From contig NC_136010.1 in NCBI RefSeq assembly GCF_048128805.1, positions 19,906,980-19,970,979 of the forward strand: 64,000 nucleotides of DNA, read 5' to 3'. The translations under genes and the position numbers were made by a program. Under the pieces are notes generated by a model, which saw nothing but the letters and a program-made list of their open reading frames with translations, did no database searches and was not told the DNA's origin. The DNA is from Centroberyx gerrardi (lineage: Eukaryota; Chordata; Actinopteri; Beryciformes; Berycidae). Below are positions 28,701-43,300 of the stretch, one piece after another. How positions within the stretch are numbered: the first letter of the stretch is position 1; each line of letters starts with the position of its first letter.

Positions 28701-31700
28701 GTCTCCCCCGCACACCAAGATCCTGTAGTCCTGGAGGTTTCTGAAGAAACTCAGTCTGAAAGAAAGGTGTTGGGCGTTGAAATCAGAACTATAACAGCAT
28801 ACTGTATGTAGAGTCTGATAGGGAGTCAGAAGAAGTGTTATAGGACAAAGTGGTCCAAAAGTAGTCGAATACTCTGCTCACTGAATTTCAAAATAAGAGT
28901 CTACAGATCTAAATTGTATTTACATTTTGTTCCGGTTGTGGTAACTGTGCAACATAACCTGCTGTACTGATTACTTACCCTGGTCCAGGTCCACCGTTCA
29001 AAAGGTTGTATACCTGCCGTGGATTCAGTAAATACTGAAATTTACGCAGGACTCTGAAATACATAAAATCAGGCTAAAAAATCTGCATATATTTTACATC
29101 TATTTTTCCATTAATGCGTTCTTGTTTTGACTCACCTCTCTCCCTGCTTGCCGCCACTTTTAGGGTTTACAAATACCAGAAGAGGATGGGTGTTTGGCAC
29201 AGGGCTAATCTGTTGAACAATAACCAATTATTATATCACACACAAACAAATCAAATATCAAAAACAAGCCCACATACTGTACATTTACATTCTTCTCATT
29301 CAAGCGATCTGTCCCAGTTTAGCCTACTCTAAATGTTAAGTTATAATTGGTCAGAACTGGACTGTATTGGACGGGACAGTACCTGAAGCACCTGCCCATC
29401 AGGAGTGGTATTGAGCTCGCTGTCCTCCGTTGAGGCTGTGCAGCCGTTCTTTATGTTGTTTGCTCTCTCCTTTAGGGAGGAAAAACACAAAAAACACAAA
29501 GTGAATAAACCTGAGAAAACTCACTAGAGCCTTCCTTTCCTTTTGAGGACAAATAAAAATATGTACGCCTGTCAAAATGCCGTGCAAGCGAGAAGGCAAA
29601 ATGTGAGTGCTTTCCACCTACAAGAAACAGCCTTGGGGTGATGTTATGTTGTGGGATGGCAAGACAGAGACTGGTTGTGCATGTGCTTCAGATGTCTAGC
29701 GGGAGAGCCTGGGGGTGAATCTCTACCTTTATAACTGGGTATATTGCCCATGGAGGCAGGATATGGTCTCTGAGAGGCCCGCAGGTACACTCTGTTGGCT
29801 CCTGGGCTGCACACTCATCATGACGCTGCAAAACAGTCACAGTGACTTATTACATACACAAAAACTCACAACGCACTCTCACGGCAGTGTTGACAACTAA
29901 TGGAATGCAAAATTCAAAGATCTGCTTTTTTTGCATTTCTGTTTTATTGGCTGGCTTACAGTGGAGAGAGAGAGGGGGAAGATGGGAGAGAGGGAGGGGG
30001 ATGACACATGACAAAGGTCCCAGGCCGGATTCCAACCCAGGATGTCACAGGTACATGGCATACGCCTTAGCCACCTGAGCCACCAGGATGCCAAAATGCA
30101 AATTACTTCACACGTCAGTACAGAAACTAGTTATTCCCAAAGTAGTGTGTCTGCCACACACTAAGATGCTCCTTACCATGATGTGACACCACACGCAGTG
30201 CTTGCCCGTTTTTATCTTTTTATTTTATTGTTTATTTTTACAGGGACAATGCACAATTTAAAAGAAATTGCACCAGAGTTAGCTTCCAGATAATTTGCAT
30301 CTGTTGTCCCTGGCCAGGAAATGCAAACAACACACACAATCACAGGACATGCTATACAACACAGTAAAAAAAAAAAAACAGTACAATGTACATAAAAAAC
30401 CCAATGTGTAGTATTGAATATACCAGATAAAAGCCATACAAGGCACTCATTAGTGGTGACATAATTGGGTTGACTTAAGCCAGAGCTTTAGGTTTGATTT
30501 AAAAGCTACACTGCTTTCAGAGTCTCTGATATCGGAAGGTATGGAATTCAATTTTCCAACTACTTTAACAGAAAAAGCTGATTGGCTGACTTTCTGAACT
30601 GTGGTAGTCCCCCTAGCATTGCTGTTAGGGCCGGTCAGGTTCCTTACCATGGTGTGACACCACACGCAGTGCTTGCCCGTTAAGCCCTTGTAGCTCTTAA
30701 TCTTCTTCTGGCATTTATCACACTTCCAAGAGTCGCAGTTCCCGCTCACCCAGTCGTGCGCTGCAACCTGAAATATGGGATAAATGTTTTACATCACCAA
30801 GTCTGCATAACAGCAGGCACACTGAGAACGAACCCTTAAGTGGACTGTAAATGTCACTGTAAATGTTGTCATGGCGACACTGTCATACCCCTGTATCTTT
30901 CCTTGACTTCACATAAGTCCTGGTGCAGGGGGCAGGGTTCCTGTTCGCACAGCGTCCGTGGACTGTGTATTTGCAGCCTACATAACAGGACACATAGCTC
31001 AGCTGTCATATTAAATTATTATTGTATTATTATAGTACTAAATTGCCCTGTCAAATTTGAAGCTGGCATGACTATACAGCTATAGTTTAGACAATAAAAT
31101 GCAGTTTCCAGTTTCACTAATAAATGGCACTGTGGTGTCGCCCTCTCCTGGTGAGGTGAGGTACTCACAGGTGCAGCACAGCCCTTGTTTCCTCAGGCCC
31201 AGCAGCATGCTCTGGCACACATTGCAGTAAACAGGCTTGTTGAAATGCTTCATCCTCCAAAGGTGCTGCCCATCCTTCTGGGTCATCTGATTGGCGAAGG
31301 AGGAATAATTCATTATTGTACTGAAGATGGAAACGGTACAGTGCATCATGGTTTAGGATCTTTGTGATTGTGCACCACTTGTTTGCAGTTTGAAAGCAGA
31401 GGGTTGTTAAATATATTTGAAGGTAATTTATGCAACAACAGCGTCACCCCATCCAAAGATAGTGACTGTAGTGGATCTACTTTTGTCATTTCAGTAAGGC
31501 CTCACATCTCTTTATCATCATAGATCTTAACACTTGCATCACATTTCACAAACCCTTTCATGCATATACTGTGGCCATGGCCTGCATTTCACAGTTGCTT
31601 TTCACACCCACTCACTACTGCCCCTGGCTTAACGATATTCCTGAGGATATGTAGCTCTACACATCAAAACATACTGTATATCACCATGCAATCATATTCA

Positions 31701-41930: not shown

Positions 41931-43300
41931 TGTTAAACCTGTAATACAGAGCTGTGATAGAGGCGTAATTATGTAGCAGCCCTAACGAAAAATCACTAAA
42001 ATATTGTTATAATATGCTACTTATATAGGGGCCTCATAGGGGTCTGTGGTGCTCAATAGTGAAGTGACCTAGGCTACTTTATGGTATTATATCCTATGAT
42101 ATTACCAGAAAATGCCTATAATATTCCTATAAGAACTTAAAGTGCTGTGGTACTCAATAGTAAGTTCATTGATCGTATCGTACATGTTCTTTATATGGTT
42201 CTCACTACATGTACTTTATATGTTTGTATGTCATATGGTATTACTATATGATTTTCTGCATGATAAAAAGTTTTTGAAACCTTTGCTGAGATGTTTGTAC
42301 AGTTTCCTTTTAACATTTCTATAGGATTACTATAGAGATGAGGTTTGCCACTTAAACTAATTCATAATAAATGCAGACCAGAAAACAACAAACAACTGTG
42401 TGCCATATCATTAAAGAGGAACTCCCTTGAGAGCCCGTGATACTGCAGAAAAAAAAAAAAAACATTTGACATGTACAGTCAGGAAGAGGTTTGTAAATAC
42501 AGTACCTATGCTATACAACACAACAAACAAAAAAATGTATTTGTAGATGAAGATGACGCATTTGAAATATTTATATTATATTTTTATATTTTGAATGGCC
42601 AAAATGTATTTGGGATATGCTTTTATTATTCTTAGTCATATGTTGTCAACAGCCAGCAGAAAGGAAGAATGTATTTCTAGTGTGCAAAATACATGTACAA
42701 ATACATTTTGGGCCATTTTTTGTGTATATATATTGAAACACAGGATAGCTAAACATATTCTGAAATATTTGTGAAATGTATTATTTTTCAGTATGGGGGA
42801 CTACTGTGTACTATATTGTAGTAAACACATCACATAATGATGTCTGTGGACAATAACAGAGACATTTGGCTCAGCCATGATTTCACATTCCAATGACCAC
42901 AATGGCGAGGATTTAGGCTTCACAATGGGGCTGAGCTGGCAAGAGAGGATAACAGACATTTAAAACATGCGGGTGTCTGGGTTACAGAGAGAAAAGAGGG
43001 AGAGAGAGAGGGGTGGGGTTGGTCAAACTGGTCTGGCCTGAGTCAAAGTAGGATTGTTCACCTGGATCAGCATTTCAGGACCCATATCCTAATTTTCAGT
43101 CTTCACTGACCTGGTTTCTTCAAAAAGAGGCAAATCTTTCCTCTTGGCTTCTGAAGATGTATTTAGCTGATCTGCCCCTGAGAAACGAAGCTCCCTGCAG
43201 ATCACTGATGACATGATGTGGTAAAATAAGGAACTACATATTTTCCTAATTAAGATGCTAAATTTAAAATCTTGTTAATCCCACCAAGAAAATACATCCG
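41931..43300. other. dgka-rnf41 intergenic spacer with a low-complexity repeat
   Basis: About 1.4 kb. From roughly 42020 to 42330 there is AT-rich sequence with an internal direct repeat: ctgtggtgctcaatagtgaag near 42042 and ctgtggtactcaatagtaag near 42143. The remainder has no gene I can support. Confidence 0.5.

Follow-up and report, generated by a model that had tools for sequence, protein, structure and literature searches.

The window analysed here is a single stretch of 64,000 nucleotides, taken at its full length, and it holds dgka on the minus strand. The splice model of this gene comprises 23 coding exons that run from 35740 to 25713 and encode 733 residues with a terminal stop only; GT-AG ends bound all 21 introns between exons 2 and 23, and the first intron likewise. 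Without its first 26 residues, the dgka product matches the EF-hand structure of DGK alpha (6iie, E 3.8e-35), and Pfam reports the domains DAG_kinase_N, EF-hand, C1_1, DAGK_cat and DAGK_acc in it, where C1_1 was called in two stretches of the protein and a position was given for just one of them. Based on domain order and on its cysteine/histidine pattern, exon 10 is assigned to the second C1 domain (C1B). Elsewhere in the window, a long open frame on the minus strand (725-1585) has an end that looks like the beginning of a nuclear-receptor zinc finger, and this frame resembles NR4A. The two dgka exons that border the region of interest are as follows.

30648..30767, minus strand: dgka coding exon 10, 120 nt, residues 270-309 (splice model)
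29727..29825, minus strand: dgka coding exon 11, acceptor partner for both of the donors described below (splice model)

The end of exon 10 is covered by one member of a direct repeat, whose two copies (30170-30210 and 30641-30681) are each 41 nt long, agree at 40 of 41 positions and lie 471 nt apart from start to start.

30641..30681, minus strand: upstream copy of the putative target-site duplication (TSD), comprising the final 34 nt of coding exon 10 and 7 intron nt; carries donor 1, exon end 30648
30170..30210, minus strand: downstream copy of the putative TSD; carries donor 2, equivalent exon end 30177

The sole mismatch between the copies is a C in the upstream copy and a T in the downstream copy, at offset 29 counted from 0 in the sense of the gene. 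The repeat cannot be lengthened beyond 41 nt, as the outer neighbouring bases are unlike at both edges, but its true extent as a duplication may be slightly smaller: the LINE tail that adjoins it (see below) ends in A, so the first one or two A residues of the repeat may derive from the tail, and the true duplication would then measure 39-41 nt. One difference in 41 positions corresponds to a divergence of 2.4% with a 95% interval of 0.06-12.9%, which is too wide for the single mismatch to date the insertion. A preliminary description of this DNA had placed 41-bp copies with 40 of 41 matches on either side of 30211-30640, had read the repeated segment as 34 nt from the end of exon 10 plus the donor GTAAGG, and had given the end of exon 10, the start of exon 11 at 29825 and a protein of 733 residues. 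Its coordinates for the copies proved exact, each copy indeed comprises 34 exon and 7 intron nt, and the splice model agrees with the gene structure at every one of these points.

When the 64-kb window was searched against itself by BLAST with the low-complexity filter switched on, for same-strand pairs no more than 10 kb apart, ≥20 nt long and ≥85% identical at E ≤1e-3, this pair and no other was reported, with an E value of 4e-12; the E limit itself removes the shortest repeat pairs. In an unfiltered control, exact direct repeats reached at most 29 nt in the 1.7 kb that surrounds the site, and among 74 overlapping 1.7-kb windows across the whole stretch the eight highest values were 31-49 nt and the median was 13. 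The longer exact repeats are taken to be simple repeats of the window. A chance origin of the 41-bp repeat was rejected on the filtered self-BLAST, despite the longer exact repeats that the unfiltered control finds elsewhere.

The sequence between the two copies fills the gap exactly, with no leftover bases at either end, and has the following parts.

30211..30640, minus strand: 5'-truncated LINE, probably L2-like, 430 bp, in dgka sense (our label, assigned by inference)
30447..30640, minus strand: end of the LINE open frame, closing with TAA TGA (translation)
30237..30316, minus strand: predicted branched stem-loop in the LINE 3' UTR, in which GGGACAA pairs with UUGUCCC
30211..30240, minus strand: A-rich 3' LINE tail, in which the hexamer AATAAA occurs three times (start positions 30236, 30229 and 30224)

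The layout is that of a 5'-truncated LINE, because the end of an open frame with tandem stops, a 3' UTR predicted to fold and an A-rich tail placed at the downstream copy all occur in it. The tail is built of ATAAA-like units and adjoins the downstream copy at 30210, and the open frame is in phase with dgka exon 10. When the trimmed 80 nt of the stem-loop were folded, the energy was -24.0 kcal/mol (z -2.58, with 3 of 200 shuffles equally good), a value to be read with the fact that this stretch was picked after the result of a 120-nt fold was known; over that longer 120-nt stretch the z score was -1.53, and 17 of 200 shuffles were equally good. The last residues of the 61-aa remnant encoded by the open frame appear to resemble the C-termini of LINE reverse transcriptases.

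Searches of sequence libraries were made with both the remnant and the insert. For the 61-aa remnant, Pfam returned no family at E ≤1, the PDB returned only two matches, both at chance level (best E 0.32), and in IMG/VR nine stretches fitted a pattern, none of which was confirmed as a relative. Rfam includes a UnaL2 family; no Rfam family reached its gathering score in the insert, where the only match was a sub-threshold one to WLE3 at 30291-30329. The insert is read as a 5'-truncated LINE from its anatomy and its C-terminal motif. The element probably belongs to an L2-like family; fish LINEs of the L2 clade are described as having a 3' stem-loop that is followed by short repeats (PMC4176376, PMC2653535).

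Elsewhere in the window, an unfiltered comparison gives only short matches to the insert, the best being 28 nt at 89%, and a filtered one (E ≤0.01) does not bring up the LINE 3' end a second time. On the minus strand at 42446-42535 there are two short matches to the LINE 3' UTR, the first 28 nt long at 89% and the second 32 nt long at 84%. One of them includes GTTGTATAGCAT, and they perhaps represent a decayed relative of the LINE, or a chance resemblance of T-rich sequence. Intron 10 also holds a second retroelement-like stretch downstream of the insert (29930-30095, minus strand), which carries tRNA-like A-box and B-box motifs. These motifs fit the A-box/B-box consensus, and the stretch resembles a fish tRNA-derived SINE. 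No second copy of it was found in the window (filter on, E ≤0.01), and a search of the window with ARAGORN under the bacterial code did not call any tRNA gene.

We consider it highly probable that a 5'-truncated LINE, probably L2-like, inserted into exon 10 by target-primed reverse transcription (TPRT), that the insertion duplicated the end of the exon together with its splice donor, and that the upstream donor is the one in use. In the TPRT model, as set out in a study of zebrafish ZfL2-2, the second strand is cut downstream of the first nick, which gives rise to a TSD (PMC2666801). At dgka, the first nick would have been made inside coding exon 10, about 34 nt before the exon end, on the antisense strand at the sequence GTT/AA, and the second cut would have followed within the intron, 7 nt past the exon end and 41 nt downstream of the first. 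Repair that fills both ends would then leave the exon end and the whole splice donor doubled, with the 5'-truncated insert of 430 bp between the copies. During splicing, the 120-nt exon would end at the upstream donor in its original frame, and the LINE and the second copy would leave as intron. The empty site was represented by joining both flanks in silico. The mechanism is a known one, at an unusual position. The preliminary description had likewise attributed the repeat to the target-site duplication of a LINE, and that attribution is borne out by the presence of the repeat at both ends of the insert, by the A-rich tail and by the implied nick at GTT/AA. The evidence supports a TSD made by insertion of a 5'-truncated LINE as by far the simplest account of the repeat and the insert. 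Among the titles, abstract openings and passages considered from an open-licence library, we found no description of a duplication that copies a splice donor, and a precedent may well exist in print.

Two other origins of the arrangement were weighed. The 41-bp segment could have been doubled in tandem by another process, with the LINE landing between the copies at a later time, and the length of the repeat, which exceeds that of a usual LINE duplication, speaks for this order of events. It would, however, require the LINE to hit the exact junction of the tandem copies without making a duplication of its own, and there are no spare bases at the ends of the insert. We regard this origin as very improbable, and tandem duplication followed by LINE insertion was rejected because the repeats adjoin both ends of the insert. 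An assembly artefact or a mixture of haplotypes is conceivable in that the sequence of the window is a consensus only, but neither the coherent LINE-like ends nor the one-base difference between the copies is expected of a simple misjoin, and we give such an error the smallest probability of all the readings discussed here. A LINE insertion that made its own TSD stands as the preferred origin.

The insertion would have left exon 10 with two donors in series. Both read ATG|GTAAGG and their 9-mers are identical; with a matrix built from 20 other dgka donors, each scores 7.30, which ranks 11th of the 21 donors scored in the gene, and a donor score of at least 7.30 is reached by 2.1% of the GT sites on the same strand. 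Use of the upstream donor gives an exon of 120 nt, whereas use of the downstream donor gives one of 591 nt that contains stops. The preliminary description had counted two competing donors 471 bp apart and had held that the upstream copy keeps the frame, so that the duplication itself may have spared the gene; the donors found at that spacing, which may compete, are indeed identical over 9 nt, and the 733-aa model with its terminal stop only is what the upstream donor yields. From these features, we expect nearly all transcripts to be spliced at the upstream donor, so that the LINE and the second donor are spliced out as intron. Given its intact frame, dgka was probably spared and most likely still works.

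Alternatively, the second donor might be used in some transcripts, or the intron might be kept, which would produce a dgka-LINE fusion of 374 residues or lead to nonsense-mediated decay and leave the gene partly damaged. The identity of the two donor 9-mers is in keeping with such leakage, as is the continuation of the frame for 65 codons into the LINE. Translated past the end of exon 10, these 65 in-frame codons, of which the first two and a third come from duplicated intron bases, run to a TAA at 30452-30450, so that the predicted product of 374 residues stops before the catalytic domain; a match in phase between the LINE frame and dgka has a 1-in-3 chance of arising. Vertebrate splicing prefers short exons. 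The leaky product would demand an exon of 591 nt as opposed to 120 nt, and the intact upstream donor lies nearer to the acceptor of its own exon, both of which make appreciable use of the second donor unlikely. The three AATAAA hexamers of the LINE tail (30219-30236, minus strand) have their starts 48-60 nt before the duplicated donor. It is speculative, but U1 bound to the second donor could mute premature polyadenylation at these hexamers.

The duplicated donor could also take part in splicing in another manner, if an acceptor within the LINE were joined to it to make a new exon in intron 10, spanning either 30351-30177 (175 nt) or 30525-30177 (349 nt). Upstream of 30351 there is a T-rich tract and TATAG, with pyrimidines at 16 of 20 positions as compared to 12 of 20 at the acceptors of exons 10 and 11, yet the AG at 30351 is missing from the acceptors that score above 6 when the matrix is derived from 22 dgka acceptors. 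The AG before 30525 scores 7.10 and belongs to the highest-scoring 3.5% of AG sites on that strand, a rank that favours the longer candidate exon but that is common in 64 kb. The early stop in the 175-nt candidate would make it a poison exon. We judge the creation of a new exon to be decidedly improbable, and give still less credence to the idea that a regulated poison exon thereby arose in dgka in a single step, which would be a mirror image of the birth of introns from introners. Splicing from the upstream donor to exon 11 remains our preferred reading.

With the first nick inside the exon and the upstream donor in use, the length of the duplication would be critical. Counted from a nick at the edge of the repeat, a TSD of at least 40 nt (34 + 6) is needed for the upstream copy to hold donor positions +1 to +6, and here it is 41 nt. 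Since the first nick would have fallen inside the exon, a TSD shorter than 40 bp would deprive the upstream copy of a complete donor. The margin does not depend on the exact edge of the repeat: if one or two A residues come from the LINE tail, the required and the actual length shrink together, and the margin stays at 1 nt. The long TSD seen in an intact gene may reflect survival, as shorter TSDs at the same nick would break the exon. In a cell assay of ZfL2-2, a TSD accompanied 20 of 25 wild-type insertions, and the changes at the target were at most 20 bp in 24 of the 25, the lone long TSD being 1228 bp (PMC2666801). The 41-bp duplication at dgka is unusual, yet it is within the range reported for ZfL2-2.

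If this account is true, dgka shows clearly how TSD length decides whether an insertion into an exon does harm. It would also provide a natural test of splice choice, in which two identical donors stand in series and their context alone differs. Like cases could be sought genome-wide with a search filter for direct repeats that span an exon-intron border and flank a retroelement.

The dgka insertion shares features with several known systems. It is comparable to ZfL2-2 of zebrafish, a member of the L2 clade that inserts by TPRT, is often 5'-truncated and is flanked by a TSD, one that exceeded 20 bp once in 25 insertions (PMC2666801). Unlike most ZfL2-2 insertions, the dgka element has a TSD of 41 bp that is longer than the target changes of 24 of the 25 wild-type insertions and that covers the end of an exon and its donor (PMC2666801). 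There is also a likeness to introners that obtain an adjacent splice site from the duplication arising at their insertion, which allows them to be spliced out as introns (PMC9860276); their authors think that introners spread mostly as DNA transposons, and duplications of 3-9 bp accompany some families (PMC9860276). However, introners create a new intron, whereas the dgka LINE lengthens an existing one by doubling its donor (PMC9860276). In the gene model, the insert is part of the intron between exons 10 and 11 and does not form a new intron inside an exon, and this intron must predate the insertion, because the duplicated target contains its donor.

Insertion of a LINE into a coding exon has a parallel in somatic L1 insertions in MET, where a 5'-truncated LINE lies inside a coding exon and three of nine cases fall 31 bp into exon 14 (PMC12934576, preprint). 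Those three cases show a 2-bp TSD, an 11-bp TSD and a 1-bp deletion, respectively, and exon 14 is skipped (PMC12934576, preprint). In contrast, the duplication in dgka is long and covers the donor, and the reading frame survives. Finally, direct repeats near intron borders have been described in which repeats beside splice sites are read as traces of insertion, as we read the repeat in dgka (PMC11782384). Those repeats measure 4-30 bp (mean 11.4) and pair both borders of an intron, whereas in dgka a repeat of 41 bp duplicates a single border around a retroelement (PMC11782384).
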